DNA of 62,929 bases, taken from assembly GCA_018399495.1 (NCBI GenBank), contig JAGYOG010000012.1, forward strand, positions 1 to 62,929. Reading direction: 5' to 3'. Positions 27,930 through 62,929 of this stretch are shown here, in pieces (position 1 is the first letter of the stretch; every line of letters begins with the position of its first letter). The DNA comes from Sphaerochaeta sp. (GTDB lineage Bacteria; Spirochaetota; Spirochaetia; Sphaerochaetales; Sphaerochaetaceae). A model generated the notes under the pieces. That model saw nothing but the letters and a program-made list of their open reading frames with translations, made no database searches and was not told the origin of the DNA. The position numbers and the translations under genes are program-made.

Positions 27930-28038
27930 TCTACTAATAATTTCTAAAGTTTCGTAATTATAATACAAATAGAGGGTTGTATCATATACTTCCTGAGCAA
28001 TTCATAGTATAATCTACCAAGAAGGGAGGGGATTATAT

Positions 28039-32587: not shown

Positions 32588-32719
32588 ACTGTCCTAAGAA
32601 GTGAGCATCAAACCAAAACGTCATATCCATGTATGCAGCCAAAGGCAAGGGAAAGAACAATATTGAGATTGTAGAAGCAAAGAGTCCTCCTTTGATGGAT
32701 GGTTAATCTGCGCCAACGT

Positions 32720-34390: not shown

Positions 34391-34433
34391 TATAAAAAAT
34401 CGATTATAACCTGACTTTGACAGTGAAATACGT

Positions 34434-34466
34434 AAAAGCTTGCAACTTATTCAGAAGCAAGCTTTT
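34434..34466. terminator. Perfect 10-bp hairpin, candidate bidirectional terminator
   Basis: AAAAGCTTGC (34434-34443) and GCAAGCTTTT (34457-34466) are exact complements with a 13-base loop. The stem ends in A4/T4, so it could stop transcripts from either side. It lies between the IS1595 target and the IS1634-type element. Confidence 0.5.
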
Positions 34467-34479
34467 ATTACTTCACGAG

Positions 34480-36451
34480 AACAACAGAAAATATGGTTGA
34501 TAGATTCAGTCCTCGTAATTTTTTCTGGTCTGCCCGATGATCCTTCGATGTCCGACTGCTGCAGGAACTTCCTCGATAAGGTCTATGCCAAGGGTTCATA
34601 TAAGGTGTCAACGATCACGTCATAGTATGCGACCCTATGGATGCTGGCTCTGCCAGCTGACCGTGTTGAACCGGGAAAGCGATCGCTGTATCGACTTGGC
34701 CGAGTATTTCCAGCCGAGCTGCAGCTCCAGCAGCCGTTCCAAGACCAAGGAAATGAAACAGATAAGGAAGTGGGCCCGTATCCTGTCCTGCCTGCTGTGG
34801 AACACCGGCCTCAACGACAGCATCCCCGTCTGGTGACCTTGAACGTCTCCTCTATTTTCCAGCCTCCGTAGATGTCCGCTATCTCCCGAGGCCGGCACCA
34901 TGGTTCAACACCAAAACCCGTCCGAATCCCGATAGTATGTATACAATAGTTTGTCGGATTGATCTGCGACTAGTTTTCGACACCGACGACGTTGCTGGTG
35001 CAGATGAGGTAGTAGCCGTCGTACTTCTCGTCCTCCAGCCTGGAGGCGTCGAACCTCGTAGAGGCACCAGTCGGCCTGTACCAGCTCCCCGCCTTGACGG
35101 GGCTCTTCCTCGTACTTGCTCTGCCGTAGCTGGAGTCCTGGGGTCCTTCGACCGTTTGCCCTCGGACTGAAGCGCCTTCTCGATCACCGCCTGCCGCTCG
35201 TGCTTCGCCCCGTCGCTGTACTCTTGGCTCCAGATGAACACCTGCTGCTCGTTGTAGGTCCCGCTGTGCTTCTTGCCGTCGACGTCGCCGCAGGTGCTTG
35301 CTCCTCCAGATCGTCTCTCCTTGATCATGGATACCACGTTGCCGTTTCGTCCAGCTTATGCCCCATCCCCGCCCGAGAGTGCGAACCCCGGCCTGGGAGT
35401 CCGACTCGTATGGACTGGTTGATCACATACCCGTTCCTGTATCCCGGATCTTCATGATGTTGTAGTAGCGAGCATCCCCTTGTCCGCCACCACGATCTTC
35501 CCAGTTGTCGGCGAAGTCGATGATGTTGTTGTCCATGGCTCAGCAGCGTCTCGCAGTCGTTGGTGTTGCCCCTGAACAGCTCGTAGGTGATGGGAATGGA
35601 AAGCTCATCCATGAACAGGCCCATCTGGATGATGGGCCTGCCTGTGCCCCGTAGGGGCCCTTGGCCCTGAGCCTGTTTTCGTCATCTGCCTCGTCCCGCT
35701 CGAAGTAATAGTTGGTGACGTCGTAGAACACCACCGTGTCCCTTCCGAACTTCTCCTTCACCTTTGGCGTCCATGTGCCTCAGCAGGGCGGTGGTCCTCC
35801 ATTTCAGGAGGCAGTCCAGTTCGCAGACATCCTGCAGGCCGTACTTCGTGTCGCCGAAGAACCGCCTTGTGCTCCCATAAGGTTCTTCTTGGAGGCCGGC
35901 CACAGGCATCGCGAGAGTAGAGCAGGTGCTGGAAGATGACGTTGATGTTGAATTCGCAGTCCATAAGACCTGCGCCGGTTGTTGATTGAATTTGTCCAGC
36001 TCCATGGTAGATCCTCGAGTACGCAGCGAACCCAAGGTTTTTGCAGTCGTCCGACGCCTGCAGCAGGTCGCTCCTGCCCGACAGGCCGAGCCGGAGGCCG
36101 AGGTCGACCTGAGAGCTCATCAACTCACCGTATTCCTTACTTCTTCCCTGAGCCCGTTCAGCCTTGCAGCACGTAGGCCTGCGGATCCTCCTCTCCGCGG
36201 CTTCTCAGGTCGTTGGCGGAGAACTTCTCGACCATGACCTCGTTTGTGCTTATCTTCCGGATGCGGCTGACGGTGTTGATGTAATAGATCGTGTCGCCGC
36301 TCTTGAGCACGTTCCTTGGTCATCATGTAGGCCATGGGCTTTTTTCCGCCTTCAGTATATATGAAGCAGGGATGATTGTCAATGAAAAAGTACAAAAAAA
36401 TGACGCAATTTCTTATCTCTAAAAAATTACGCCCCACTGTCTTCTGTTGTT
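34480..36451 (-). mobile_element. IS1634-type element (ends tentative)
   Basis: The transposase gene is bracketed by AACAACAGAA (34480-34489) and TTCTGTTGTT (36442-36451), an exact 10-bp inverted repeat giving an element of about 1.97 kb, normal for IS1634. No matching target duplication was seen outside these ends, so the limits are tentative. Confidence 0.5.
34506..36335 (-). pseudogene. IS1634-type DDE transposase, frameshifted
   Basis: It starts MAYMMTK at 36335. Frames give 'YYINTVSRIRKISTNEVMVEKFSANDL', 'MGAQGGSSATRS' side frames, 'TVVFYDVTNYYFERDEADDENRLRAKGPYGAQ' (catalytic Asp block), 'MDELSIPITYELFRGNTNDCETL', 'IWSQEYSDGAKHERQAVIEKAL', and near the end 'RPVFHSRQDRIRAHFLICFISLVLERLLELQLGW'. 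The order and about 600-codon length fit IS1634. Many indels break it. GC is higher than in flanking DNA, which points to a foreign source. Confidence 0.75.
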
Positions 36452-36809
36452 TGCTGCGGAACCATGGAAAATACGATACTGAGAAGCTTCTCGAGTCAAT
36501 CGCTTAATCACACGTATTTGTAAAAACCTGTACTAGATATATCAAACAACTATCGCCATAAGGAACATTTTCTGATACAGTGTGTTGCATGATACTTCTG
36601 TAAAACCTTTTTCAGACAATCTGTCTTGATACTAAAGGCTATCAGAAAGTCAGATCTTCCAGACGGCAATTCGTGGGTTCACTCTGCATGCTGGGAACAA
36701 GAAGAAGAACACAATACAAAGAGAATCTGCTACCTAAAATGTTATTACACAGTTCTAGCTTTCTCTTTTTTGTCCCTTCGTCTTTACCAAAATACCAAGG
36801 AGATCAACC
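36452..36809. other. Intergenic region, 358 bp, upstream of the GH42 gene
   Basis: No gene was seen. It must carry the promoter of the two-gene glycosidase operon. AAGGAGATC sits 9 bases before the GH42 ATG as its ribosome site. This is also the boundary where frameshift-rich sequence gives way to clean open frames. Confidence 0.6.
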
Positions 36810-46975: not shown

Positions 46976-48138
46976 TACACGTAGCAATCATCGGGGCCGG
47001 AAACATTAGCGGTGCTCACATCGACGGTTACAAGGCCTTTCCCCAAAGGTGCAAGATTGTAGCTCTGGTTGACATCAATCATGACAAGACTCAGATGAGG
47101 ATGGAAAAGGAACACTTGTCTGTGCCCATCTATGACAGCTTACAGTCTCTCTTGGAGGAGCAGGAGGTACAGCTAATCAGTATCTGCACACCTCCTTTTA
47201 CACATAAGGATCTAGCCGTACAAGCATTACAAGCAGGAGTGAATGTGCTACTTGAAAAACCGATGGCTTCCTCACTACAAGAGTGTGATGCCATTCTTGA
47301 GGCAGAAAAAGCAAGCACTGCCACGCTCTCGGTTGTAGCGCAGAATCGTTTTCGCAGCCCGGTTTGGAATATGAAGAAAGTTCTTGATGAGGGCCTGATT
47401 GGAAAACTACTTCATACACAGATTAATTCCTACTGGTGGCGAGGGTATCCTTATTATGATCTCTGGTGGAGAGGAACTTGGGAAAAAGAAGGTGGTGGTT
47501 GCACATTGAACCACGCCGTGCATCATATCGACATGATGCTTTGGCTTACAGGGATGCCCAAGGAGCTGACTGCGATGATGGCTAACCTGGCCCATGACAA
47601 CTCAGAGGTGGAAGACATCTCCATGGCTCTTCTTCGTTATGACGATAAGTCTCTTGCCCAGGTAACCAGCTCGGTGATTCACCACGGAGAAAAACAAGAA
47701 ATCATCCTGCAAGGCAGTTCGGCACGTATCTCTGCTCCTTTGGAAATCGCTGCAAACAGCACTTCCCCAAATGGGTTTCCGAATACAAACGAACAATTGG
47801 AGACTACAATCAAGGGAAGATTCGAGGAGCTCGGAGAATTGCCTCATCAAGGCCATGAAGGACAGATCGAGGATATGCTTGGTGCCATCGAACAGAACAG
47901 GGAGCCTCTTGTAAGTGCTCAGGATGGGAGAAACGCTATCGAGCTCATAATGGGTATCTATAAAGCAGCCACTGAACAAACGCATGTATCCTTTCCTCTT
48001 GGCAAGGAAGATCCCTTCTATTCGGAAAAAGACATCTTAAAAGTAGCTCCTAGATTTTATGAGAAGAAAAATTCTGTAGCTGATCAGGGAGACTATGAAA
48101 TTACTCTTGGAAGTAATTACAAGAAGTCAAACGCATAG
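46972..48138 (+). CDS. Gfo/Idh/MocA-family oxidoreductase
   Basis: This 388-aa NAD(P)-dependent sugar oxidoreductase has an N-terminal Rossmann fold (IIGAGNISGAH at residues 5-15), the 'LLEKPMA' motif with the conserved Lys near residue 96, and the C-terminal alpha/beta domain with 'GGCTLNHAVHHIDMMLWLTG' (the His-His-Asp region of the active site). It would oxidise or reduce a sugar hydroxyl of the imported glycoside or its product. RBS AAGGAG lies inside the end of the 59-aa ORF. Substrate unknown. Confidence 0.9.
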   Translation: MIHVAIIGAGNISGAHIDGYKAFPQRCKIVALVDINHDKTQMRMEKEHLSVPIYDSLQSLLEEQEVQLISICTPPFTHKDLAVQALQAGVNVLLEKPMASSLQECDAILEAEKASTATLSVVAQNRFRSPVWNMKKVLDEGLIGKLLHTQINSYWWRGYPYYDLWWRGTWEKEGGGCTLNHAVHHIDMMLWLTGMPKELTAMMANLAHDNSEVEDISMALLRYDDKSLAQVTSSVIHHGEKQEIILQGSSARISAPLEIAANSTSPNGFPNTNEQLETTIKGRFEELGELPHQGHEGQIEDMLGAIEQNREPLVSAQDGRNAIELIMGIYKAATEQTHVSFPLGKEDPFYSEKDILKVAPRFYEKKNSVADQGDYEITLGSNYKKSNA

Positions 48139-48180
48139 CGCGTACAAGAAAAATATACAATACTATATAAGGAACACGAT

Positions 48181-49300
48181 ATGAGTACTACAAACAGAGC
48201 ATCAGGAATGAACTATGCACCATCTGGAAAACCAGATCCGGTATGCAAAAAAGGTGATTTACATTTGCAGGTAACGGCACTGGACACACGGGCATATCTA
48301 TGGATATGTGAATGGACTGGATCTGAAGCAGGGGAACCTTGAAATATGTCTACGACCGCGATTCGACAACGTGCAGAAAATGCCTGCCGCCTATCCAGCA
48401 ACTGTGGTCGACAATGAGGATCAGATTCTGCAAGACAAGGAGATAGCTTATGGTAGCAGGAGCCGCCATAGCCTCAAAACGTTGTAATCTGGGCATCAGG
48501 GTGATGAACCACGGTGGCGATTGTTACTTACGATACAAGGCACCGATGACCACTTCCTGGAACAGCTTTGATCGGGCAAAGAGGCTGCAACGAAGTGACC
48601 GGTAAAAATACATGGTCTACGCATAGTGAGCGTCTGCATGTTGAAGGGCTGTATACGCTGGACAATTAACACTGATGCGGAAGAATGGGAAGGTTATTCA
48701 GGTCACCGGGCTTGGACCTTCATCGTCTGGGAATCCGCCAAGGTTGGGATAGACCCGGATTGGTTCTGGCAAAAAGAACAGTATGGGAGTGAATCCTCGT
48801 GATATAGGCGCTCACCAGATCGAGCAATATCTCTTACGCATCTGAAGAAGATGCAACGGTGGTAAAGTCAGATAGCCAACTATGCTAACCCGGATCATCC
48901 AGACTTGATGATTTCAGGATGCCATGCTGGTGGGAAACAATGGTACTTACAAACTATTTCAGGTTGACTGGTTCACTCCCCGACGGGTTGCCTAATGTGG
49001 GGTGATGGTCGCACCATCATCCTGGGCACGAAGGGATATATTGAGATCCGTAAATACATCGATATCGGCGTGTGGGACGGAGGAAACTGACCACGTGTAT
49101 CTTGTCGACGAGACGAAAGAACACCACCTGATGTAGCTGAAAGGTCGGCTATCCTTTCTTTCGGGCAATCTTATTCTTGACTAGTTTAAACAGAACAGAA
49201 AACGCCATGACGCAACACTGCGCTTCTCAAAGCTGCAGAACCTGTTTGATTGCTCAAAGGGATGTGGTGAATCCAGATAGCATAAGATTTTCAGAGGCTC
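48181..49300 (+). pseudogene. Second Gfo/Idh/MocA-family oxidoreductase, frameshifted
   Basis: ATG at 48181 gives 'MSTTNRASGMNYAPSGKPDPVCKKGD', then in shifting frames 'FTFAGNGTGHGHIYGM', 'GTLKYVYDRDSTT', 'VDNEDQILQD', 'LHVEGLYTL', 'RLGIDPDWFWQKEQYG', 'DIGAHQIEQYL', 'MLVGNNGTYKLFQVDWFTPDGLP.WGDGRTIILGTKGYIEIRKYIDI' and 'GNHVYLVDETKEHH'. This order fits a Gfo/Idh oxidoreductase of about 370 aa, distinct from the intact one upstream. It begins 43 bases after it and would be the next gene of the operon. It carries ten or more indels. Confidence 0.7.
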
Positions 49301-49313
49301 CCCAAGGGGGAAA

Positions 49314-50540
49314 ATGTTTTTCTTGGGGACTATAAGAGGTTATTCGTTGAGTACTCATCCATTTCGCCGATCATGCTTCTTGCAAGTGTCTTCATCATCC
49401 AGTTCTTGGCAATCTATGACTTGCGCTGATGTTCGACTTGCCTGCCATCGCTTTGCGCTACGGCATCAGCTCTGGGTGAACATCCTTTGCTGCATACAGG
49501 CTACTTCATGGTCGGCATAGCAGTACTGCTTTTGGCAAGCTGTCAGAAGGCAAATTGGGATTATCTTAAGACGATTCTTATTGGCACCTCCTTCTATGCA
49601 GCAGGGATGATCGGAATCGCTTTTTCTGAAAACATGTTTCTGTATGCCGCGGCAAAACTCCTTGCAGGAGTCGGTTATTCAATCATATATTGGCAATGAT
49701 GCCGAACTTTGTCTTGATGATTGTCGGTGATGAGAAAGCTATGTTGGGGAGCGCTATCGAAATTTCTCCTTTGCTTTGGCATTCTTCATTGCCCCGTTCT
49801 CAGGCTACATATTACAAGATGTATATCGTATTCGGTCCTCGATTATTGTACATACTGGTTATCAGCTCTCATGCGTTTGGCAAGCATCCTTCTTGTGTTG
49901 ACGGCGGATTCGTCGTATCCAATACCCCGAGAGGCAAAGCACGCTTCGCGCACTCGCTAGAGTAGGTCAAAGACACGCCTGCTTGTCATTATGGCGATTC
50001 ATCTCCCGCTCCCATCCTTTTTGTGAGTAATTTCATAGCATTTATCTCTCTGATCTGGGGTGGCTGGAGAAAGAATCAGTTTAGTATTATACCGTCATGG
50101 GGCTGGGTTCCATTCTCTCGGCCTTTTTTCATCCTTTTGCAAGTACCCGATTTGGAAAGAAAGCACCATCTGGCTCTTGCGATCACAACCATCTCTCTTG
50201 TGTTTATCATGCAACCCGCTGGTCCCCCTTGCTCTATCTGTCTTTATTCTTCTTCTCGCCACGCTCTGGCTTTGACTTGTTCACTGATTGATGTGTCATC
50301 AGTGCACTGGGGCACACAAAGGCAAGAGAGAGGAGCGTTGGATCCTCGCAGTGGCGATGGGGTGTCACATAGAATGGTAGGAACCAATGCCCACATTTGG
50401 CCAAACTGGTATACGCTTCGTTTGGATTTAAGGCAAACGTACTGCTGAGCTCTGTGCATGATACTCTGCATTTTCATCATAAAGCACGTATTCTTCAATG
50501 CAAAAGAACTGGAAGCTCTCTCTGATCAAGTAAGGCCTTT
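49314..50540 (+). pseudogene. MFS-type transporter, frameshifted
   Basis: Hydrophobic segments follow each other in alternating frames: 'IMLLASVFIIQFLAIYDL', 'LHTGYFMVGIAVLLLASCQK', 'LKTILIGTSFYAAGMIGIAFSENMFLYAAAKLLAGVGYSIIY', 'MMPNFVLMIVGDEKAMLGSAIEISFAFAFFIAPFSGYILQDVY' and later 'VSNFIAFISLIWG'. The pattern is that of a 12-helix major facilitator with a GxxY..AKLLAGVGYS motif. It follows the oxidoreductase remnant on the same strand. Cargo unknown. Confidence 0.55.
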
Positions 50541-50840
50541 GGTATGAGCCGTTCTGCGACGGCATATCAACTCATATCCTCTTCTAAACACAACCCCAGC
50601 TTCAGCTTTCTCATATGCCCCCAATTCTAGCCTTTACGTATTGATTGCGCTATGAAGTTACCCGATTCGTACTGCCTGTGTAAGCACAAGGAGAGAACGG
50701 CTTGGCTTATCAATACCACGGATTTCTCTGCATGAGATTCCGGTCATCCGACATTCCTCTGCGCGTGGCAACGCCCTTTCGCTTTCGGACCGACGCGTTG
50801 CGCAACGGCAACCATCCGGACATCTTTGAAACCCTTTACC
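50541..50840. other. Unassigned stretch
   Basis: No gene could be supported. It lies between the transporter remnant and the recombinase remnant and may include the recombinase 5' part with too many indels to read. Confidence 0.4.
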
Positions 50841-51480
50841 TATAATTCACAAGGTGGATGTCTTTTTCTACAATGAGCGGATCCACCTCCTCGTCAAGCA
50901 GGAGCGTCTTTACTTTCTTCATGCGTATAGCCTGCCGAGAGGAGAATGGAGCGAGAACATCAAGTGGGGCCTGAGAAGAAGCACCATGGATCCCGACTCC
51001 CGACATTCTCCAGAAGGCGTTGAAAATAAGTGATCAATGAGGAGGAAGGCCCATCCTCAACATTGCTGAGGCCAGGATAGTTCTGAAGATCTTTGATTGG
51101 TACGAGCAAGGCTGGAGTATCTGTGAGGATCAAGAAGGAGTTGAATCCCTGAAGGTTCCCACTCCCAGCGGAAAGAAGAAATGGCCGGTGAAGACGATCG
51201 AGAACATCTCACCAATGAGAAATATACCGGCACCTCAGTCTCATGGAGAAACAGATTCAGAGTTTCCTCAATCCAAGAGAACGGTTCGTGACCTGCTCGA
51301 GGTCCATCGGTCACTAACCATCACCTCCCCAATCATCCATGAACGCCGCTTCAAACGCATACAGAAACTGAAGGCGAAGGGCTCCAACATCGAGATCGAT
51401 GAGAGAGGGAACAAGGTCCGAAAGAGCACTCATTACAGCTCCAAGAGGGCTGTGACCAAAGACGAAGAAAAACCACCAAA
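50841..51480 (+). pseudogene. Large serine recombinase fragment, second copy
   Basis: Frames read 'FFYNERIHLLVKQ', 'WSENIKWGLRRSTMDPDS', 'EARIVLKIFDWYEQGWSIC', 'PLKVPTPSGKKKWPVKTIENI', 'NEKYTGTSVSWRNR' type sequence, 'VRDLLEVHR' and 'HERRFKRIQKLKAKGSNIEIDERGNKVRKSTHYSSKR'. That is the end of the resolvase domain plus the Recombinase domain. The part after 51150 is closely related to 30180-30455, so two relatives of one integrase family are present 21 kb apart. Confidence 0.7.
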
Positions 51481-51899
51481 CCCCAAAACTAATTGGCATA
51501 TTAATCAACGGTATTGTTGAGGATACGAGTGTGCGTAGGTGGATAAATTGACGAAATTGAGTAGTCTAAAATATCAAAAGCTGAAAAACTGGTAAAATTC
51601 CAAAAATAAGTGTTTGAACAACAAAATACTGCAAAGGTAATCTTATCATGGGCAAGTTGTCAGCTGAGACATCTACTCAAAATACAAGCAAGTGCAGATT
51701 TGAACTACCACAGGGGGATGGCGGCCGATAGCCACATTTCAGAAGTCCATCCCAGCAAAATCCGCAGTCCTGATGTCCAGAATGCATCATCCTCATACAT
51801 TTTTGTGTATTATGAGTTTCCCAAGAACCGGATACCACAGGAAATCATTAAATTACTAATATTATTGAAATTGCCTTGATCGGACCATATAATACTGTA
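51481..51899. other. Unassigned stretch, 419 bp
   Basis: Short coding-like pieces but no recognisable product. It separates the recombinase remnant from the methyltransferase-like remnant and may contain the latter's 5' part. Confidence 0.4.
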
Positions 51900-52560
51900 G
51901 TTATTATCGATTGGGGAAATTAATATGATAGGATTATCAAATACCAAGCCTGTATCGAAGGAGAGATATTTGTTGATAAACAAGATGAGAGAAAGCAATT
52001 ATTTAAGATGCTGGCTCAAAAATACCAACCATCCGGGATTGTATCCTGGTTCCTTTGTTCATATAACACCCTATTATGTATTCATGATATGACTTATATA
52101 GATATGGACAAAAGAATTCCAGAATTTTCGGAAGATAGAAAACCTAGTACACAATTTCTGAAAAAGGAAAAATGTATACAGAGACTCAATCGTTAAATGG
52201 TTTAAAGCTGATTATTCAAAACCTCTTCCAATTGAAGAAAACAGCTTTGATATAATGTTTTCCTTTTATGCAGGGTTCATTTCTCAAGCTTGTAAGAAAT
52301 ACCTTAAACCGCAAGGAATTCTCATATGTAATAATAGGTCACGGAGATTCAACCCTGGCGTATTTGGATAAAGATTTATGAACTTGAAGGAGTGATCAAC
52401 AGGAGAGGAGAAAATTTTCAATTTGTGGAGGATCTTCATTCCTATTTTGTAAAGTTAGCGATGGAACTGCCATAAACAAGGAAACGTGTGCTAGAAAAAT
52501 GATTGGTGAGAATTTTTCTAGGAAAGGGTTTGCATACATTTTCCGGTATTTACCTTCATG
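51900..52560 (+). pseudogene. SAM-methyltransferase-like conserved protein, frameshifted
   Basis: Frames give 'QLFKMLAQKYQPSGI', 'GSFVHITPYYVF', 'DMTYIDMDKRIPEF', 'VKWFKADYSKPLPIEENSFDIMFSFYAGFISQACKKYLKPQGILICNN', 'HGDSTLAYLDKDYELEGVINRRGENFQFVEDLHSYFVK' and 'KMIGENFSRKGFAYIFRYLPS'. The order (acidic 'YVDMDKR' end of a strand, 'DYS..LP', 'FDIMFSFYAGFIS') is that of a class I methyltransferase-like family of unknown substrate. Many indels. Confidence 0.55.
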
Positions 52561-53151
52561 TGAAATAGGTACCACGTAGAATCTTCACATAATCCTCGTG
52601 CCGTGTTTCTATGGGGTTCTTTTGCAGGTTTTTCATAAAACAGGGTGCCAGGTAGGCCTGCTCGTTTTCCACATTCGAGCTCGCTGGAATTGTCATAGCT
52701 ATATGCAGTGGCCATGGAGACATCTAATTTGCATGGTTTTTCCCGACTACAGTAGTGAATTGGGGCGTGAACTGCTGTTCTTGATCCATGTATAATGACG
52801 GTGAAAATGGCGGTGTAAACAAAGTGCCTTTTGCTTACTGCTGTCTATGTGATGTGAATGTGGTATTGGTCTATGGAGGGGGAAGGGGAATGCATTCCCC
52901 TACGCGCTTGGTGGCTTATCGGCTCTGCTCCCCTAGCGGTCCGCAAGCCGGAGCCGGCCAATGCAGCGCTGAGTTTTCGATTTTTGGAATCAAGGGTATT
53001 CAGATCTTGGAACCATGGGTTTTAATATGAGATGATTGAATTCAGTTGGTAGGGCAAGATTCTGCTGCCCTAGCTTCAAGCCACACCACGTTATCTGAGC
53101 TCATTTTTGATCGTTACTGCTTTTTCTCTCTTACTGTGGTATTGTGGAAGC
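52561..53151. repeat. Repeat copy 1: non-coding leader of the duplicated cassette
   Basis: 52577-53151 matches 60063-60417 in order: AATCCTCGTGCCGTGTTTCT, the palindrome AGGGGAATGCATTCCCCT (52884-52901), the GCTCCCCTAGCGGTCCGC block, and the AT-rich leader before the kinase ATG. Copy 1 carries about 190 extra bases between 52630 and 52870 that copy 2 lacks. Confidence 0.75.
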
Positions 53152-54401
53152 ATGCAAACCATACGTGGGGGCAAGTAAACGGGGACGGGTATTGGATGTT
53201 CGTCTTAGGACATGATTATCTTGTCATCCTCACTATCTTCTTTGCGATCTTCGCCATCTGATACTAGACGGAAAGAACGAACTCTATCAGGTGATGAACG
53301 TCCGTACTCAAGTGATCATCCTTGCATCCTCTCATGGGCCATGCTGGTTCCTCTTAGCTAAAGGGCCAGTACTCTCAGTTCTTGAGTATGGCATTTCGTA
53401 CTATTCTCTCACTTCTTGTAATCCGTCTGTTGTTTCTGAGATGGGAATTACACTGCTCTATTGCCTCCTACTCTTCTATGCCATCTCAGTGAAGCCCTGA
53501 AAGCAAGCGGAATTCCGGGTATCCTTGATGCTCGGAGGGATCATTCTCCTGCTAGAGGGGCTCAGAACTTCTGGTATCAGCTTCCCACCACCATCGGTCT
53601 CAGAGCATATGGGCATCAGAGGTTTCTGATTATAAGCATATCTGGTAACCTGTCACTATCTCTCTGTTACTAAGCAGAAAATCTTCGAGCATCATACCGA
53701 GCTTTTGCTTAAAGAACTTTACATCAACAATCTGATCGATACGAACCTCGGGTTTCAGTGACTTCCCGCCCTCCAGATCGAGAAGGAGTCGCGAATCGAG
53801 GAGAGATTGAGTATGACCCGAGAGATCCATGATATAACGGGGCATACATTGATGAGCATCATCATGATGCTTGAATATGCTGAGGATTTGCTCCATTTGG
53901 GAAAGAGTCAGACTCTCAAGGAAATACTCGGATCAGGCTCGCTTGCAGGCCCGTAATGGGCATGGGGAGATCAGGTCTGCCTCAAGCAGTTGCGTACTAT
54001 CGAAGATGTAGCCATCCCGTTGGAGAACCGATCCTGAAGATTGTACAGAACTTTAAGAAGGTCACCCATATGGAAATCCAGCTGAGTTCTCAAACTTCCA
54101 GGGCAGAAGATACAAGGCTATGACCATTTTCTCCCTGCGGTATGTCCAGGAAGGGCTGACGAACGCATTCAGGCATGGGAAAGCTACAAAGGTGACTATG
54201 ATCTTCGAAGACAGTTCATCCCTTGTCGTGAGTATCGGAAGACAATGGCCTTGGGTAGTATGAGATCGTGGAGGATCGACTCATGATGGCTGAAAGGATC
54301 GAGGACCTGTCGCTCATGTATCAGCGTCAGTTACCCACCGATTCCTAGTAGCAAGACTTCCGATCCTAAACCAAGAATTCATAGAATTGGAGGTACGTTA
54401 G
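53152..54401 (+). pseudogene. Sensor histidine kinase, copy 1, frameshifted
   Basis: Near-identical at DNA level to the intact kinase at 60418-61689, starting MQTIRGG and ending at TAG before the regulator ATG at 54402. Segments such as 'MTREIHDITGHTLMSIIMMLEYAEDLLHLGKSQTL' and 'RYVQEGLTNAFRHGKATKVTMIF' are visible, but more than a dozen one- to three-base gains, losses and local scrambles destroy the frame. Most differences from copy 2 are indels, not single substitutions. Confidence 0.8.
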
Positions 54402-55089
54402 ATGTCGAACTCAAAGATACGAGTACAGCTTGTCGATGATCAGTTGTTGTTTGTCCACAGCCTAGCGCAGGTTATCATGAGTAGGGCCGATGATATATAA
54501 TTGAATATAGCATCCAACACAACGGTGAAGATGCAATCCGAGCTGCACAGGAGGATCAACCTGATGTCCTAATTATGGACATCGGTGATGCCTGGTATGG
54601 GTGGGTGGAGGCTTCTCGAGCCATCCTCGCTACTCCTCATATGAAGATCATGATGCTCACCACCTTCGATGAGGATGAGTATGTGTTTCAGGCTCTTGGG
54701 TATGGGGTTAAAGGATATCTCCCTAAGACGATTCTTCCAAGGAGGTCATAACTGCCATCAGAGCCATCTATGCCGGATATTTAAACTAGATATCCCCTTC
54801 AGCTGTCTCCAAACTGACCGAAAACCTGCGACCGCCTGATCAAAAAGATATCTGAGAACACAAGACTACTTCTTTACCCCACATGGTTCATAGAACTTAC
54901 GAGGCTTTGAGAAGGAGATCCGGAATTGGTGGCAAGGTTTTAGTAACAAGGAGATAGCGACTACTGCAAATCTGGCTGAACAGACTGTCAAGAACTACCT
55001 GACGAATATCTATGGCAAGATGGGGGTCCACAAGCGCTCACAGGTGGTGAAACTCTCTACTTGCAGGATAGATCGATGCATTCAAGTAG
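54402..55089 (+). pseudogene. NarL-type response regulator, copy 1, frameshifted
   Basis: This is the counterpart of 61690-62379. The first 80 bases are identical, then small clustered changes appear (for example at 54497-54510, 54585-54600, 54628-54634, 54775-54790). The receiver and LuxR helix-turn-helix are recognisable but not in one frame. Confidence 0.8.
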
Positions 55090-55183
55090 TACCAATTGAG
55101 TACTCATCGAGGTACTAACGTACCTATCGGAACCGAAGAAGAGGGAGGTATGCTGGAGCCATCAATCGTAAAGGAGGACATGC

Positions 55184-56568
55184 ATGTCTACGACACACAG
55201 ATGGAGAGCCATAACTCTTCTTATCTTGTTAACAGGTACCATCCTGTTTGCAGGAGGCCAAGCGGACCAGGTGAAGGCTGCTGACACCGAAAGTCTCGAA
55301 GGTATTCTCGTATCAGTTCCACAACAGAGGAGAACAGGGCTAAGATCATGGCAGATGCCTACGGCTTCATACCTGCGACATTGGGAAGATTATTGTTGAG
55401 GAGTATCCTCGGGATACTTATTTCAGAATCTTGAAGTCCGATTCGAGCGAAGAGCGAACATCGACCTACTTCTCTCCTTTAGATGGATATTCCACTGATC
55501 GCCAACCACACCGAACGTGGGTATATCGAGGACCTCACCAAGTATATCCCCAGAGAGAAGTTCGTCGATGCTATCGCTGAGAAATCCCTCGATGCGGTTA
55601 CTTATGGTGGAAAGATCATGGCATCCCCGATGCAGAACTCCGATCAATACCTCTATATCAACGTGGATATGGCTAAAGCCGCAGGGGTAAAGCTACCAGA
55701 GGTTGTAGTGGATGCCGACACGGTGATTACCGAAGAGTTCGCTCGCAGATGGGGTGAGAGTGCTTGGACCTGGGATGAGGTCCTGCAGGCAGCTATGAAG
55801 ATGAAGAAAGACGTCGATGGGGACTCTATCACCGACATTTACGGGCTGCATATCGAACAGGCAGGTAGACTCTATCAACTACAGCCCTTAGGAGGCTCTC
55901 GTGGTGGAAAGATTGTCTCTCCGGATGGGACGACCGTCATAGGATACCTTGACCAACCAGTATGGTATGATGCAGTGAAGTTCTATGGAGATCTGTTCAC
56001 CACTTATGAGGTAGAAGTCCCAAGCGCCTTCCTCCCCGGGTATGATTCCCCTTCAGAGTTCATAAATGGCTCCTATGCAATGATGGTTGGTGGTGGATGG
56101 AATCTGAAACGGATACTCGAAGCTGACATAAACGTAGTTGTAGCAGCGCATCCCTACTTTGCAGACGGTGTATCAACGACTCCCACAGGCTCCTGGGTCA
56201 CAGGAATCGCCAAGACTGCATCAGAGGATAACAAGCGGCTAGCTGCTGAATTCCTTTCCTGGTGGACCTTGAGTGACGAGGGAACTAAACTTTGGTACGA
56301 TGCCAATGGAGAGCTACCTGCATCGAAGCATATGCTAGAGGAGCTTTCTACCAATGAGAAGTATGATGCCTTTCCGGTTAGTGCCCAGAGACTGGGAGTC
56401 TATCAAGTACTTAATACTGCAGAGGGAAGACCAGTGACCCCTTATTACCCCTTCATCAATGCTGGATTCGACAAAGCCTTCACTGATGCTGCTCAGGGAG
56501 TGGATCCGAAGAAAGCCTTGGATGAAGCGATCAAAGAGATAGAGAAGAACATCTCAAGGGTCCAATAG
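55184..56568 (+). pseudogene. Sugar ABC transporter substrate-binding protein, 5' part frameshifted
   Basis: The ATG at 55184 follows AAAGGAGGAC and gives a signal peptide (MSTTHRW, 'ITLLILLTGTILFAGGQAD'). Between 55270 and 55485 several indels relative to the copy at 62474 break the frame. From 55483 the remaining 361 codons are fully open ('MDIPLIANHTERGYIEDLTKYIPREKF', 'SAWTWDEVLQAAMKM', 'NGSYAMMVGGGWNLKRIL', 'AAEFLSWWTLSDEGTKLWYD'). The repaired protein is a family 1 binding protein of about 460 aa. It precedes two permease genes. If the 5' errors are artefacts, this is a functional gene. Confidence 0.8.
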
Positions 56569-56571
56569 CAT

Positions 56572-57447
56572 ATGAACAATCGATTGAAGAGAGATTCTCT
56601 CAAAGCCTACATGTTCCTATTCCCCGCTGTCGGGTTGATCCTCCTTTTTAAGATATATCCGATCATCATCGTGTTCGGAGAGAGTTTCTACAAAGTGAGC
56701 TATCTTAGTGGCAGTAAGGTGTTCGTTGGGATCAATAATTATCTTGACCTCTTCTTTGATCGATCGTTCTGGAACTCAGTCTGGGTCACCACTAAGCTGA
56801 ATCTCCTGATCAATCCGATTCAGGTAGTGATAGCGGTCGTGATGGCCCTATTAATCAATATGGAGTTCAGAGGGAGGTTGTTCTACAGACTACTGTTCTT
56901 CATCCCTCTGGGCGTTTCCTTGGCTGTAACGACGATATACTGGAGTATCTTTTTCCGTCCTGGCAATGGGGTGATGAACTACATACTCAACAGTGTCGGA
57001 ATCCCGAGGCAGCCTTTCTTCAACTCTCCGAGCCAAGCGTTGTGGATTATTATCGGTATTGCCTCCTGGAAAGGGTGCTCCTTTTGGATGATATTCATCC
57101 TTGCAGGGTTGAAGAACATCCCTCGAGAGATCTACGAAGCCTGTGATGTGGAGGGAATAGAACCTATCGCTTCCTTCTTCTACATCACCTTACCACTGCT
57201 TGCCAAGACGATTCTGTTCGTATTCGTGACCGATACAGCTGCCAACTTCATGCTCTTCATCCCGATCTTCATGATCACCAAAGGAGGACCTGACTCCTCG
57301 ACGAACGTCCTGATGCATGAAGCTTATCGGACTGCAATGCTCCAGGGGGATATGGGACATGGGATGGCCATGATTGTCTTCCTCATGTTGATGCTTATGA
57401 CGGTTGTGGCCATCCAGTTCAAAGTAACGGGGGAACGTGAAATATGA
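56572..57447 (+). CDS. Carbohydrate ABC transporter permease (CUT1, MalF-like)
   Basis: This 291-aa protein has six helices and the EAA loop 'YEACDVEGIEPIASFFYITLPLL' (Ala-Cys in place of Ala-Ala). It starts three bases after the binding-protein stop and overlaps the next permease by 4 bp. It forms the import channel; no ATPase gene is in this locus. Confidence 0.88.
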   Translation: MNNRLKRDSLKAYMFLFPAVGLILLFKIYPIIIVFGESFYKVSYLSGSKVFVGINNYLDLFFDRSFWNSVWVTTKLNLLINPIQVVIAVVMALLINMEFRGRLFYRLLFFIPLGVSLAVTTIYWSIFFRPGNGVMNYILNSVGIPRQPFFNSPSQALWIIIGIASWKGCSFWMIFILAGLKNIPREIYEACDVEGIEPIASFFYITLPLLAKTILFVFVTDTAANFMLFIPIFMITKGGPDSSTNVLMHEAYRTAMLQGDMGHGMAMIVFLMLMLMTVVAIQFKVTGEREI

Positions 57448-58289
57448 TACGCAGGACGACGACACTCCAACATTTTCTCTTCCATATCCTATCGATCCTC
57501 TTCGGGTTAATATTCGTGGTCCCAATCATCTGGTCCCTTATCGCCTCCTTCAGGCCTGAGAACCTCGTTTTTGCAGGGCTCTCACCCCTGTCGATTAAGG
57601 CGTTGATCCCTCTTCCATTCACGATGAAGAATTTTATCGGGGTCTTCACCAACGACGTTTTCTCTTCAGCTCTTGTGAACACCCTCGTTGTAGCAGCAGT
57701 AACAGTGGTGTGTGGAGTGATCATAAATGCTGCAGCCGGGTTCGCCTTCGCCACGATTAACTTCGTTGGTAAGGGGATCCTTTTCTCCATCGTCCTTTCT
57801 TCGTTCCTCATGCCCCCTGACGTCCTCGTGATCCCTACTTATAATCTCGTAGACTCCCTAGGGTTGATAGACACGAGAATTGCGTTGATTCTCCCAGTGG
57901 TCGGGAACGGGATGGTGATCTTCATGTTTATCCAGTTCTTTTCTCAGGTTCCTAAAGCACTCAGGGAGGCCGCCCTGATCGATGGGGCATCAAGCCTGCA
58001 GGTACTGAGTAAAATCTATCTTCCTCTTACCCTCCCAACAATGATTGGAGCCTCTCTGATTCTCTTTTTGGCCCAATGGGAGGCATTCCTCTGGCCATTG
58101 GTCGTTTCTCGCTCAATCGAGAACGGAATGATCCAGATAGCGTTGTCAACCTTCACCCAGCAGTACGGTACTCTTTGGGGTATGAAGCTTGCTGCAGCGA
58201 GCCTTTTATGTTTCATCCCACTGATCCTACTGATGCCTCTGCAGCGGTACTATATCGCGAGTGTCGTGGGCACTGCCCTCAAAGAATAG
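57444..58289 (+). CDS. Carbohydrate ABC transporter permease (CUT1, MalG-like)
   Basis: This 281-aa protein begins MIRRTTTLQHF with 'PIIWSLIASFRPENLVF' near residue 28-44 and the EAA loop 'LREAALIDGASSLQVLSKIYLPLTLP'. It has six helices. It overlaps the preceding permease by 4 bp and is nine bases before the nucleoside hydrolase gene. Confidence 0.88.
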   Translation: MIRRTTTLQHFLFHILSILFGLIFVVPIIWSLIASFRPENLVFAGLSPLSIKALIPLPFTMKNFIGVFTNDVFSSALVNTLVVAAVTVVCGVIINAAAGFAFATINFVGKGILFSIVLSSFLMPPDVLVIPTYNLVDSLGLIDTRIALILPVVGNGMVIFMFIQFFSQVPKALREAALIDGASSLQVLSKIYLPLTLPTMIGASLILFLAQWEAFLWPLVVSRSIENGMIQIALSTFTQQYGTLWGMKLAAASLLCFIPLILLMPLQRYYIASVVGTALKE

Positions 58290-58298
58290 GAGTAGAAA

Positions 58299-59174
58299 AT
58301 GAAAAAGCATAAGCAGGATGTCGTACTTGATACTGACACCTTTAACGAAATAGATGACCAGTTCGCTTTGGCATATCTCCAACGAGCTTCCGACCGACTT
58401 AATCTCAAGGCGATATATGCTGCCCCCTTTCACAATGATAGGTCAAGCTCGGCAGGTGATGGGATGCAAAAGAGCTATGAGGAGATCGAGCGACTTCTTG
58501 AGCGTTTGGAGGTCCCTGAGACACCCCACTTCATGGGCTCAGACCGGTTCCTTTCCCGTAAAGATATCCCAGTTGCTTCAGGTGCTGTAGATGATCTCAT
58601 AGAGCGATCAAAGGGTTACAGCCAAGAGGATCCCCTTGTGATAATCGCTATCGGTGCGCTTACGAATATCGCATCGGCACTACTTGTCGATCCGACAATC
58701 GCGACACGAACGCATCTCTACTGGCTTGGGGGGCATCTACCAGGGTGGCCGGTCACTTACGAGTTCAACCTCTGTGGCGACATCAAGGCAACCCAGGTAG
58801 TTTTCGACTCTAAGATTCCGATGCATCTGATGCCCTGTGAGCCCGTATCATCCCATTTGTCATCCACAGTATGTGAGCTCGAGAGATACCTATCACATGA
58901 TGATAGACTCTGTACGTTTCTCTATGCGCGCTTCTGTGACTATCTTCCAGGTTCCTTCGGGGTCAAGGAGATTTGGGATGTGGCTCCCGTGGCCTGGTTG
59001 ACCCTGCCTGAGACGATCCAATCCTATTCGATCGCTCGTCCAAGGGTTAGTGAGGATGGTTCCTATATCATGGATCCTAGGAGGGGACAGATTGAGGTAG
59101 CCTTCAGACTGGATCGTGATGCAATCTTTTCCGATATGTTCGAACGACTGAATCCAAAGGGAAAGAGAAACTGA
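58299..59174 (+). CDS. Nucleoside hydrolase (IUNH family)
   Basis: This 291-aa enzyme cleaves nucleosides to base and ribose. The calcium/ribose site is 'LDTDTFNEIDDQFAL' with Asp11, Asp13, Asp19 and Asp20; the two-residue insertion before the Asp pair, compared with DTDPGxDD, marks a distinct subfamily. 'IAIGALTNIASAL' (near 114-126), 'EFNLCGD' (about 154-160) and 'IWDVAPVAW' (near 228-236, catalytic-side Asp) complete the family pattern. No signal peptide, so it acts on imported substrate. RBS AGGAG lies 7 bases upstream. Confidence 0.9.
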   Translation: MKKHKQDVVLDTDTFNEIDDQFALAYLQRASDRLNLKAIYAAPFHNDRSSSAGDGMQKSYEEIERLLERLEVPETPHFMGSDRFLSRKDIPVASGAVDDLIERSKGYSQEDPLVIIAIGALTNIASALLVDPTIATRTHLYWLGGHLPGWPVTYEFNLCGDIKATQVVFDSKIPMHLMPCEPVSSHLSSTVCELERYLSHDDRLCTFLYARFCDYLPGSFGVKEIWDVAPVAWLTLPETIQSYSIARPRVSEDGSYIMDPRRGQIEVAFRLDRDAIFSDMFERLNPKGKRN

Positions 59175-59177
59175 GAG

Positions 59178-60065
59178 ATGGACATCCTTAACTTCGGATC
59201 AATTAATATCGATCATGTCTATCAGGTCGATCATATCATACGTCCTGGGGAAACCCTTCCAAGTTCCTCTTACCATATCCATGCCGGAGGAAAGGGGGCT
59301 AACCAGTCTGTGGCCATCGTTCGGGCTGGTGGGTCGGTCAAGCATGCCGGGACAATCGGAGAGAATGGTCGTTGGCTCAAAGAGCTTCTGGATTCCTCTG
59401 GCGTTGACACCTCTTTGCTGCGGGTTACTGACGAGGTTGCAACTGGTCATACGATCATTCAGGTCGATAAGAGCGGACAGAATTCGATCATCCTTTTCGG
59501 AGGCGGAAACAATATGCAGGATGAGAGTTATATTCGAGCTGTCTTCGACTCTCTTACTGGAAAGGAGGTATTACTGATACAGAACGAGATCTCTTCACTA
59601 CCACTAATTTTGGAACTGGCATGTGATCGTCGCCTTCGTATCTGTATGAATCCTGCTCCCTTCACCGAGGGGCTTCTATCCTTACCACTAAATAGAGTTG
59701 AGATACTCATTTGTAACGAGACCGAAGCTCAAGGGTTGACAAGTAGTACTGAGGCGTCTCCCAAGGTGCTGATCGAGCATCTTTGTAGCCTCTACCCTGA
59801 GGTCCAGATTATCCTTACTGCAGGAGCCGACGGGGTCTACTGGAACGAGGGTTCAACCACCTACCATGAACCAGCACACCCTGCTCAAGTGGTCGATACT
59901 ACAGCAGCTGGCGATACGTTCATCGGCTATTTCCTTACATCCTTGGGAAAAGATTCTACTTTAAAGGAAGCTATCAGAATAGCATCTGATGCGGCCGCCT
60001 TGGCGGTTTCAAGGGAGGGGGCGATGGATTCCATCCCTTTCTCGAAGGAGATGGGTGCTAGGTAG
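59178..60065 (+). CDS. rbsK: Ribokinase (PfkB family)
   Basis: This 295-aa sugar kinase has 'GGKGANQSVA' (about 37-46), 'TIGENGRWLKELL', 'NETEA' near residue 180, and the C-terminal ATP/catalytic block 'DTTAAGDTFIGYFL' with the catalytic Asp of GD. It would phosphorylate ribose released by the adjacent hydrolase. The start is three bases after the hydrolase stop. The pair strongly implies ribonucleoside or riboside use. Confidence 0.9.
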   Translation: MDILNFGSINIDHVYQVDHIIRPGETLPSSSYHIHAGGKGANQSVAIVRAGGSVKHAGTIGENGRWLKELLDSSGVDTSLLRVTDEVATGHTIIQVDKSGQNSIILFGGGNNMQDESYIRAVFDSLTGKEVLLIQNEISSLPLILELACDRRLRICMNPAPFTEGLLSLPLNRVEILICNETEAQGLTSSTEASPKVLIEHLCSLYPEVQIILTAGADGVYWNEGSTTYHEPAHPAQVVDTTAAGDTFIGYFLTSLGKDSTLKEAIRIASDAAALAVSREGAMDSIPFSKEMGAR

Positions 60066-60417
60066 AATCTCCACATAATCCTCGTGCCGTGTTTCTAGGG
60101 GGTTATTTTGCAGGCTTTATTCGTGGTCTATGGAGGGGAAGGGGAATGCATTCCCCTACGCGCTTGGTGGCTATTCGGCTCCTCGTTTCTTGCTCCCCTA
60201 GCGGTCCGCAAGCCGGAGCCGGCCAATGCAGCGCTGAGTTTTCGATTTTTGGAATCAAGGGTATTCAGATCTTGGAACCATGGGTTTTAATATGAGATGA
60301 TTGAATTCAGTTGGTAGGCAAGTTATTCTGTTGCCCTAGCTTTCAAGCCACACCACGTTATCTGAGCTCATTTTGATCGTTACTGCTTTTTCTCTCTTAC
60401 TGTGGTATTGTGGAAGC
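60066..60417. repeat. Repeat copy 2: leader of the duplicated cassette
   Basis: This 352-bp non-coding stretch repeats 52577-53151. It contains AGGGGAATGCATTCCCCT (60140-60157, a perfect 18-bp palindrome), a GC-rich block with imperfect inverted arms (GCTCCCCTAGCGG, GTCCGCAAGCCGGAGC) and an AT-rich region before the kinase. It may combine a terminator for the upstream operon, a REP-like element and the kinase promoter. Confidence 0.7.
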
Positions 60418-61689
60418 ATGCAAACCATACGTGGGGCAAGTAAACGGGGACGGGTATTGGATGTTCGTCTTAGGACACATGATTATCTTGTCATCCTCAC
60501 TATCTTCTTTGCGATCTTCGCCTATCTGATACTAGACGGAAAGAACGAACTCTATCAGGTGATGAACGTCCGTACTCAAGTGATCATCCTTGCATCCCTC
60601 TCTGTTGTGGCCTGCGGCTGGTTCCTCTTAGCTAAAGGGCCAGTACCTCAGTTCTTGAGTATGGCATTTCTCGTACTATTCTCACTTCTTGTAATCCGTC
60701 TGTTGCTCTCTGAGATGGGAATTACACTGCTCTATTGCCTCCTACTCTTCTATGCCATCTCAGTGAAGCTCCCGAAAGCAAGCGGAATTCCGGTATCCTT
60801 GATGCTCGGAGGGATCATTCTCCTGCTAGAGGGGTTCAGAACCCTCTTCGGTATCAGCTTCCCACCACCATCGGTCTCAGAGCTATGGGCATCGAGGTTT
60901 CTGATTATAAGCATACTCATAACCTGTCACTATCTCTCTGTTACCAAGCAGAAAATCTTCGAGTATCATACCGAGCTTTTGCTTAAAGAACTTTACATCA
61001 ACAATCTGATCGATACGAACCTCGGGTTTCAGGACTTCGCCCTCCAGATCGAGAAGGAGTCGCGAATCGAGGAGAGATTGAGTATGACCCGAGAGATCCA
61101 TGATATAACGGGGTATACATTGATGAGCATCATCATGATGCTTGAATATGCTGAGGATTTGCTCCATTTGGGAAAGAGTCAGACTCTCAAGGAAATACTC
61201 GATCAGGCTCGCTTGCAGGCCCGTAATGGGCATGGGGAGATCAGGTCTGCCCTCAAGCAGTTGCGTACTATCGAAGATGTAGCCATCCCGTTGGAGAACC
61301 GGATCCTGAAGATTGTACAGAACTTTAAGAAGGTCACCCATATGGAAATCCAGCTTGAGTTCTCAAACTTCCAGGGCAGAAGATACAAGCGCTATGACCA
61401 TTTTCTCCTGCGGTATGTCCAGGAAGGGCTGACGAACGCATTCAGGCATGGGAAAGCTACAAAGGTGACTATGATCTTCTTCGAAGACAGTTCATCCCTT
61501 GTCGTGAGTATCGAAGACAATGGCCTTGGTAGTAAGGAGATCGTGGAGGGGATCGGACTCAAGGGGATGGCTGAAAGGATCGAGGACCTGTCTGGGACGC
61601 TCATGTATCAGTCGCTACCCACCGGATTCCTTTTAGTAGCAAGACTTCCGATCCTAAACCAAGAATTCATAGAATTGGAGGTACGTTAG
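60418..61689 (+). CDS. Sensor histidine kinase, HisKA_3 (NarX/LiaS-like) type
   Basis: This 423-aa membrane kinase has about six N-terminal helices (residues 20-180), a coiled linker, the dimerisation/phospho-acceptor helix 'MTREIHDITGYTLM' with His228, and an ATPase domain with 'VQEGLTNAFRHGKAT' (N box) and 'VSIEDNGLGSKEIVEGIGLKGMAERI' (G boxes). The ATG at 60418 is preferred over an upstream TTG at 60373; neither has a clear Shine-Dalgarno sequence. It abuts the response-regulator gene. No extracytoplasmic sensor domain is present, so it may sense within the membrane or through the transporter. Confidence 0.88.
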   Translation: MQTIRGASKRGRVLDVRLRTHDYLVILTIFFAIFAYLILDGKNELYQVMNVRTQVIILASLSVVACGWFLLAKGPVPQFLSMAFLVLFSLLVIRLLLSEMGITLLYCLLLFYAISVKLPKASGIPVSLMLGGIILLLEGFRTLFGISFPPPSVSELWASRFLIISILITCHYLSVTKQKIFEYHTELLLKELYINNLIDTNLGFQDFALQIEKESRIEERLSMTREIHDITGYTLMSIIMMLEYAEDLLHLGKSQTLKEILDQARLQARNGHGEIRSALKQLRTIEDVAIPLENRILKIVQNFKKVTHMEIQLEFSNFQGRRYKRYDHFLLRYVQEGLTNAFRHGKATKVTMIFFEDSSSLVVSIEDNGLGSKEIVEGIGLKGMAERIEDLSGTLMYQSLPTGFLLVARLPILNQEFIELEVR

Positions 61690-62379
61690 ATGTCGAACTC
61701 AAAGATACGAGTACAGCTTGTCGATGATCAGTTGTTGTTTGTCCACAGCCTAGCGCAGGTTATCATGAGTAGGGCCGATGATATAGTGATCACTAGCATC
61801 CAACACAACGGTGAAGATGCAATCCGAGCTGCACAGGAGGATCAACCTGATGTCCTAATTATGGACATCAAGATGCCTGGTATGGGTGGGGTGGAGGCTT
61901 CTCGAGCCATCCTCAAGCAATTCCCTCATATGAAGATCATGATGCTCACCACCTTCGATGAGGATGAGTATGTGTTTCAGGCTCTTGGGTATGGGGTCAA
62001 AGGATATCTCCTGAAGACGATTCTTCCGGAGGAGGTCATAACTGCCATCAGAGCCATCTATGCCGGGATTAACCAGATATCCCCTTCAGTTGTCTCCAAA
62101 CTGACCGAAAACCTGCGACTGCCTGATACTAAAAGATATTCAGAGAACACAAGGACTACTTCTTTACCCACATGGTTCATAGAACTTACGAGGCTTGAGA
62201 AGGAGATCCTGGAATTGGTGGTGCAAGGTTTTAGTAACAAGGAGATAGCGACTACTGCAAATCTGGCTGAACAGACTGTCAAGAACTACCTGACGAATAT
62301 CTATGGCAAGATGGGGGTCCACAAGCGCTCACAGGTGGTGAAACTCTACTTGCAGGATAGGATCGATGCATTCAAGTAG
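61690..62379 (+). CDS. Response regulator, NarL/LuxR type
   Basis: This 229-aa protein has a receiver with Asp59 ('VLIMDIKMPGMGGVEASRAIL'), acidic pair Asp12-Asp13 and Lys near residue 109, and a C-terminal LuxR helix-turn-helix ('LTRLEKEILELVVQGFSNKEIATTANLAEQTVKNYLTNIYGKMGV'). It starts at the base after the kinase stop, with GGAGG nine bases upstream inside the kinase gene. It should control the binding-protein gene 95 bp downstream. Confidence 0.92.
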   Translation: MSNSKIRVQLVDDQLLFVHSLAQVIMSRADDIVITSIQHNGEDAIRAAQEDQPDVLIMDIKMPGMGGVEASRAILKQFPHMKIMMLTTFDEDEYVFQALGYGVKGYLLKTILPEEVITAIRAIYAGINQISPSVVSKLTENLRLPDTKRYSENTRTTSLPTWFIELTRLEKEILELVVQGFSNKEIATTANLAEQTVKNYLTNIYGKMGVHKRSQVVKLYLQDRIDAFK

Positions 62380-62473
62380 TACCAATTGAGTACTCATCGA
62401 GGTACTAACGTACCTATCGGAACCGAAGAAGAGGAGGTATGCTGAGCCATCAATCGTAAAGGAGGACATGCAT

Positions 62474-62929
62474 ATGTCTACGACACACAGATGGAGAGCC
62501 ATAACTCTTCTTATCTTGTTAACAGGTACCATCCTGTTTGCAGGAGGCCAAGCGGACCAGAAGGCTGCTGACACCGAAAAAGTCCTGAAGGTATTCTCGT
62601 ATCAGTTCCACAACGAGGAGAACAGGGCTAAGATCATGGCAGATGCCTACATGGCTTCTCACCCTGACATTAAGATTATTGTTGAGGAGTATCCCTGGGA
62701 TACCTATTTCCAGAATCTTGAAGTCCGATTCGGAGCGAAGGAGCCGAACATCGACCTACTTGTGATGGATATTCCACTGATCGCCAACTACACCGAACGT
62801 GGGTATATCGAGGACCTCACCAAGTATATCCCCAGAGAGAAGTTCGTCGATGCTATCGCTGAGAAATCCCTCGATGCGGTTACTTATGGTGGAAAGATCA
62901 TGGCATCCCCGATGCAGAACTCCGATCAA
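62474..62929 (+). CDS. Sugar ABC transporter substrate-binding protein, copy 2 (partial)
   Basis: ATG at 62474 follows AAAGGAGGACATGCAT. The product starts MSTTHRWR with signal peptide '..LLILLTGTILFAGGQAD' and continues open for 152 codons to the window edge: 'VFSYQFHNEENRAKIMADAYM', 'DIKIIVEEYPWDTYFQNLEVRFGAKEPNIDLLVMDIPLIANYTERGY'. It matches the repaired 5' part of 55184-56568 almost base for base, so it shows what the undamaged N-terminus looks like. Confidence 0.88.
   Translation, partial: MSTTHRWRAITLLILLTGTILFAGGQADQKAADTEKVLKVFSYQFHNEENRAKIMADAYMASHPDIKIIVEEYPWDTYFQNLEVRFGAKEPNIDLLVMDIPLIANYTERGYIEDLTKYIPREKFVDAIAEKSLDAVTYGGKIMASPMQNSDQ

Follow-up and report, generated by a model that had tools for sequence, protein, structure and literature searches.

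A kinase, regulator and binding-protein cassette written twice in a Sphaerochaeta contig: probable uncorrected read sequence beside a self-overlapping clean piece

Introduction

According to PMC7881036, the hybrid metagenome assembler OPERA-MS starts from short-read contigs made by MEGAHIT and uses long reads to bridge the gaps between them, and PMC11261854 describes a benchmark in which OPERA-MS was run with polishing disabled. The window analyzed here, a stretch of 62,929 bases from Sphaerochaeta sp. (C4; JAGYOG010000012.1 of assembly GCA_018399495.1), resembles the product of such gap filling, in that clean contigs alternate with error-rich bridges dominated by small insertions and deletions (indels). 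Within it, a cassette composed of a leader, a histidine kinase gene, a response-regulator gene and the start of a solute-binding-protein gene occurs twice, once noisy and once clean. The likeness is incomplete, in that the indel rates published for assemblies of the OPERA-MS type are usually low.

The last clean piece of the contig can be compared with a circular contig whose ends overlap by a k-mer, as it has an exact 140-bp end repeat and is opened inside a gene; it differs in lying within a scaffold rather than being a free contig, and the value of k is presumed. Tandem gene duplication or amplification is also similar, since gene content and order are shared between units 7.28 kb apart and a plausible novel joint is present, but only one of the two copies is readable in this contig. 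The genes themselves have the same order as the HisKA_3/LuxR-type two-component and ATP-binding cassette (ABC) uptake operons of spirochaetes at three loci (L020, L021 and L022), from which this contig differs in having a PfkB kinase gene after the hydrolase gene.

Results and discussion

Comparison of the two copies

The broken first copy of the cassette is very probably uncorrected sequencing-read text placed beside a self-overlapping clean piece, and not a decayed gene copy. A first-pass annotation of the contig had described the cassette as present twice with the same gene order, and this was borne out by BLASTN, which aligned 52867-55647 with 60124-62929 over 2856 columns at 93.9% identity, and by global alignment. 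As delimited by alignment to the clean copy, the noisy copy (52867-55507, plus strand) comprises the leader, the histidine kinase gene, the response-regulator gene and the 5' part of the binding-protein gene. The second copy is indeed open, encoding a kinase of 438 amino acids (60373-61689, plus strand), a regulator of 229 amino acids (61690-62379, plus strand) and a binding-protein start of 154 amino acids that is cut off by the contig end (62468-62929, plus strand). The same annotation had counted more than a dozen frameshifts in the first copy, had described the differences as mostly small indels or short scrambles, and had proposed that the copies be aligned base by base. Such an alignment gave, for the first copy, 42 substitutions and 78 indel events, i.e., 45 deletions (77 bases) and 33 insertions (52 bases), with single-base events accounting for 51 of the 78. 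Together these are 120 events over the 2,666 clean bases opposite the noisy copy. Per 100 bases, the leader has 3.6 events, the kinase gene 4.0, the regulator gene 5.1, the spacer 2.3, the binding-protein start 6.8 and the final 140 bases 0.

A genuine recent duplication, the first copy of which had decayed to a pseudogene, would also present one frame-broken copy and one open copy. However, the errors are dominated by indels irrespective of gene function and codon position: the leader and spacer, which would not be targets of decay, are also hit, and substitutions at codon positions 1, 2 and 3 number 16, 10 and 13, with 25 of the 39 changing a residue and 14 silent. The substitutions are strand-asymmetric as well, the first copy having 23 C/T and 3 A/G transitions (p=9e-5); errors in reads of one strand can give such an asymmetry, which evolution rarely does. 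Exact identity between the copies is, moreover, confined to the 140 bp with which the contig ends. No 4- or 5-mer motif stood out at the error clusters when base modification was considered as their cause (best uncorrected p=0.0046). No further copy of the cassette was found in the same genome, where the only other match was weak (69%), covered part of the regulator gene and lay on contig C40.

Control genes in the noisy segment

An independent measure of the noise was provided by an indel-riddled serine recombinase gene (50851-51662, plus strand) that is multi-copy in the genus and 83-87% identical to copies in same-genus genomes. The gene is present in eight of the 16 other same-genus genomes searched and in none of 10 more distant ones, and an intact relative (L059) has the Pfam Resolvase and Recombinase domains. 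Copies are spaced 6.3 kb apart in one genome (G011) and 6.9 and 4.2 kb apart in another (G005); in the former, the genes between and around them include an OLD-like AAA ATPase, a GGDEF/EAL protein and a DDE transposase. Aligned with each of four intact copies, the noisy recombinase gene required 24-27 gap openings per ~843 bp; the intact copies aligned with each other (three of the six possible pairs, 88-89% identity) required 0, 3 and 0. In a five-way alignment, 13 indel runs at conserved columns were private to the noisy copy and there were zero columns in which only some of the relatives had gaps.

The adjacent gene is similarly affected. It is a frame-broken relative (51932-52560, plus strand) of an unnamed gene of 210 amino acids on contig C29, with 73% DNA identity and no Pfam family, and its protein matches are spread over three frames (51932-52558). 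As the unrelated recombinase gene and the C29-like gene are as broken as the cassette, the noise is a property of the segment and not of the copy. Disruption is not confined to the redundant copy in any case, since a separate stretch of 16.6 kb is equally broken. The idea of a decayed duplicate was rejected because unrelated neighboring genes are broken to the same degree, and we give it next to no credence.

Clean and noisy segments of the contig

The window is an entire contig, such that position 62929 is the contig end, and it belongs to a genome of 2.6 Mb in 92 contigs that is estimated to be 88.6% complete and is probably a metagenome assembly. The frame-broken state reaches well past the first copy of the cassette, extending over about 48.1-55.5 kb, and is found again in a second stretch at ~20.2-36.8 kb. 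The former segment (48136-55507) is flanked by clean ones and, on the basis of its open reading frame (ORF) profile and the recombinase control, is read as uncorrected long-read fill. The longest ORF is 163 amino acids in the 20.2-36.8 kb stretch and 141 amino acids in the 48.1-55.5 kb stretch, compared with up to 713 amino acids in the clean parts. The noise is abruptly bordered and confined to these segments: there are zero events in the 140 bp that follow 55507, and the ORF profile agrees.

ORF coverage, i.e., the fraction of bases that fall within stop-to-stop frames of 130 codons or more, was 0.66 in the window, compared with 0.79-0.99 in 13 stretches (240 kb) taken from other contigs of this genome. 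An ORF gap of at least 1.2 kb was absent from 12 of those 13 stretches. The exception (L054, 17633-20000, on contig C67 of G000) is 2.4 kb without a 130-codon ORF and is possibly another fill or simply non-coding. In practical terms, ~24 of the 62.9 kb in the contig are unreliable for gene calling, and annotation would turn the broken copy into a row of pseudogenes and a duplicated regulatory cassette, neither of which is supported by the evidence.

The clean piece and its end overlap

The two ends of the last clean piece (55508-62929, plus strand) are direct repeats of each other, with all 140 bases shared between 55508-55647 and 62790-62929; the latter finishes at the contig end. At the error rate of the first copy, an error-free run of 140 bases has P=0.0018, and clean sequence therefore begins at or shortly after 55508. 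The self-overlap of the clean piece over these 140 bases resembles that of a closed cycle, and the piece is read here as an assembly cycle of 7,282 nt in linearized form. Joining 62929 to 55648 produces an open binding-protein gene of 460 amino acids with a single terminal stop, the product of which aligns over its full length with relatives of 460 (L020), 461 (L022) and 478 (L021) amino acids. The first-pass annotation had envisaged, should the duplication be real, a locus in which a single set of permeases is flanked by a pair of regulators and a pair of binding proteins; this view is not sustained, as the clean piece closes into one binding-protein gene. A cycle of 141-mers would give a 140-base overlap, and 140 equals the largest default k of MEGAHIT (141) minus one. 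Literature searches found no paper on a 141-bp overlap in MEGAHIT and nothing usable on circular contigs that arise from tandem repeats.

These observations suggest how the contig was probably assembled. It would be a mosaic of clean short-read contigs at 1-20.2, 36.8-48.1 and 55.5-62.9 kb, with the gaps at 20.2-36.8 and 48.1-55.5 kb filled with uncorrected long-read text. The last clean piece would be a closed cycle of 7,282 nt, cut open at an arbitrary position within the binding-protein gene and written out linearly, which would leave the same 140 bases at both of its ends. A long read from the left that carried the leader, the kinase gene, the regulator gene and the binding-protein start could match both ends of the cycle. 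If the read was joined to the cycle start, its kinase-regulator part, which belongs at the far end of the cycle, may have been retained as gap filling; the cassette would then appear twice because the read re-covers sequence already present at the end of the cycle. The outcome would be the same cassette in a noisy and a clean form, with the noisy copy stopping mid-gene, as is observed. The first-pass annotation had offered an artifact of this kind, an uncorrected read placed before polished sequence, as one of its two readings, and that reading is well supported by the segment-wide indels, the control gene, the strand asymmetry in the copy and the exact 140-bp end overlap. The pattern, in which a noisy stretch precedes clean sequence with matching start and end, could be screened for in other genomes.

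Several points weigh against this account. The sequencing technology ('long read'), the behavior of the scaffolder and the origin of the cycle are inferred. Noisy stretches of this kind are not the norm, given that short-read-first hybrid assemblies of Listeria are reported in PMC8157722 to have only ~1-2 indels per 100 kb. The recombinase control does not have the C/T asymmetry of the cassette, with 18 C/T and 20 A/G transitions at conserved columns, although true divergence is mixed into those counts. The left flanks of the two copies differ in structure, and a single locus does not by itself explain both junctions. Finally, in a long-read assembly, polishing that extended inward from the contig end by about one read length would equally leave ~140 clean bases.

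The last point would fit a true tandem duplication captured in a long-read assembly. Of the two copies, short-read polishing would have reached just the second, and it would have failed at 20.2-36.8 and 48.1-55.5 kb; a clean start 140 bp before the part that matches the contig end would then correspond to about one short-read length of polishing. However, partial correction is not seen in the first copy, where all five parts before the last 140 bp have 2.3-6.8 events per 100 bp, and the lack of a comparable ORF gap in 12 of the 13 other stretches of the genome favors clean contigs with local fills. Failed polishing is quite improbable.

Left flanks and the ribokinase-leader junction

The noisy left flank consists of the C29-like gene, a short interspersed repeat, a fragment of a gene known from other genomes and the leader, whereas the clean left flank consists of the ribokinase gene, ~55 bp of the same interspersed repeat and the leader. 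BLASTN aligned 52562-52632 with 60048-60118 (71 bp, 87%, ungapped), after which the match that leads into the leader is interrupted by 234 bp unique to the first copy (52633-52866) and by 5 bp in the second (60119-60123). The interspersed repeat (52569-52678) is known from a family-level relative (78% identity to contig C263 of G066), and its first ~55 bp recur at 60063-60118. On the minus strand, 52569-52678 and 60063-60118 encode similar short peptides that both end in STWY. The gene fragment (52695-52788) lies within the 234 bp absent from the clean copy; it resembles part of an ORF of 444 amino acids in G137 that is also found in G015 (79% and 76%), and it is missing from the clean left flank. 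At the clean junction (60063-60123, plus strand) the truncated repeat is fused to the leader, an arrangement that, if real, creates a head-to-tail repeat.

The two left flanks reflect either a true head-to-tail operon or circle, or else mixed strains or an assembly join. The clean junction shortens the interspersed repeat as a joint formed by illegitimate recombination would, and it may also be an assembly join. Intact copies of the operon could be arranged in a real head-to-tail array in the population, or the operon could occur there as a free circle, with the noise hiding an intact first copy; this is possible, if on balance doubtful. The ribokinase-repeat-leader junction might then, just as tentatively, be taken as a true novel joint and the noisy read as the outer left flank. 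The clean piece closes seamlessly into an open gene, the repeat cut at the clean junction is longer both in the noisy flank and in G066, and the same leader is recorded in two contexts, all of which would be expected of an array or circle. From what is expected of assembly graphs, the opening of the cycle in mid-gene, rather than at the leader, also suggests that, compared with the cycle, the branches leading to the flanks were rare.

On the other hand, the end overlap alone accounts for the pair of copies in the contig, and the right flank beyond the ribokinase gene was not found in the same genome. The three relatives examined have a single operon in which a ribokinase gene does not directly follow the hydrolase gene. 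The plasmid collection contained no match to the cycle, no replication gene was found among the genes of the cycle in the gene list or by Pfam, and the assembler may have merged different strains. A head-to-tail array or circle overlaps with the artifact account of the indels rather than excluding it. The tandem duplication that formed the other reading of the first-pass annotation has fared unevenly: its indel-ridden copy is not upheld, and intact head-to-tail copies, of which the pair in this contig is no proof, are still compatible with the clean ribokinase-leader junction. If that junction is real, the locus would exemplify the amplification of an operon in an uncultured spirochaete.

The leader upstream of the clean kinase gene (60124-60372, plus strand) was examined by BLASTN, Rfam and folding. 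It had no match in 39 other genomes searched, a scan of the whole window against Rfam gave no match, and its fold was no stronger than those of shuffled sequences (z 0.23). Inverted repeats were absent from 59900-60450, and two short pairs were found in 52400-53150. An RNA element in the leader was rejected on the basis of the Rfam scan, the folding result and the lack of inverted repeats in 59900-60450. A viral origin of the leader was set aside after two exact patterns gave zero matches in viral contigs, as was a plasmid origin of the cycle on the zero matches in the plasmid collection.

The operon and its relatives

Downstream of the noisy copy, the clean piece encodes, on the plus strand, the 3' part of an extracellular solute-binding protein (SBP_bac_8; 55508-56568), two ABC permeases (BPD_transp_1; 56572-57447 and 57444-58289), an inosine-uridine type nucleoside hydrolase (58299-59174) and a PfkB-family (ribokinase-like) kinase (59178-60065), all assigned by Pfam. 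In the clean cassette, the histidine kinase matches HisKA_3 with 37.5 bits (cut-off 24), and its HATPase_c match of 21.6 bits is under the cut-off of 26.4; the response regulator matches Response_reg (81.4 bits) and GerE (64.9 bits), both above their cut-offs. The binding-protein gene is split between the two ends of the clean piece, and its 5' part was recognized from its ORF and from the closure. The operon is an ordinary two-component system beside a sugar- or nucleoside-type ABC uptake system, and its likely role, judged from these families, is to sense and take up a sugar or nucleoside.

A search with the binding protein returned four loci, of which the three close ones (L020, L021 and L022; 69-76%) were examined and the fourth was at 26%. 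All three have a single run of kinase, regulator, binding protein, permease, permease and hydrolase genes, the hydrolase gene of L021 being cut by a contig end. The PfkB kinase had no match in these three loci. In L020, the closest relative, the gene that follows the nucleoside hydrolase gene and occupies the place of the PfkB kinase gene (13776-14867) matches Pfam PF24754, a macrodomain family.

The operon was probably acquired laterally, to judge from its atypical tetranucleotide make-up and from the near-absence of the binding protein from the order. The tetranucleotide correlation of the clean piece with its own genome is 0.457, and 18 of 18 chunks of the same size from that genome are higher (0.584-0.802). 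At E<=1e-60, the binding protein was found in one of 138 other genomes of the order (G120, the match being the same stretch of record as L022 by coordinates). The piece may alternatively be a contig from another organism that was scaffolded in. It is also conceivable, although unlikely, that the laterally acquired operon is present in many copies arranged head to tail, or has been excised as a circle of 7,282 bp, and is so abundant that its cycle outweighed the chromosomal flanks in the short-read assembly.

The second noisy stretch

Six-frame Pfam scans gave no match in 48.14-52.56 kb or in 32.6-36.8 kb, one ABC-transporter match in 20.2-24.4 kb and one Recombinase match in 28.4-32.6 kb (30201-30452). 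The second noisy stretch (20200-36800) is ~16.6 kb long and unfit for gene calling as it stands. Its ABC-transporter gene (20233-20652) contains two TGA and three TAA codons, and it is one of two with stops among the 89 ABC-transporter matches in the genome, a search that frameshifted genes mostly escape. G+C content within the stretch ranges from 0.30 (26.5-28 kb) to 0.61 (35-35.5 kb). The stretch also contains a direct repeat of ~400 bp with 81% identity (30951-31348 and 32823-33213). Two noisy pieces, 29531-29850 and 33213-33440, match the start of contig C32 (86%) and contig C52 (96%) of the same genome; these matches may be repeats, or may mark places where the contigs ought to join.

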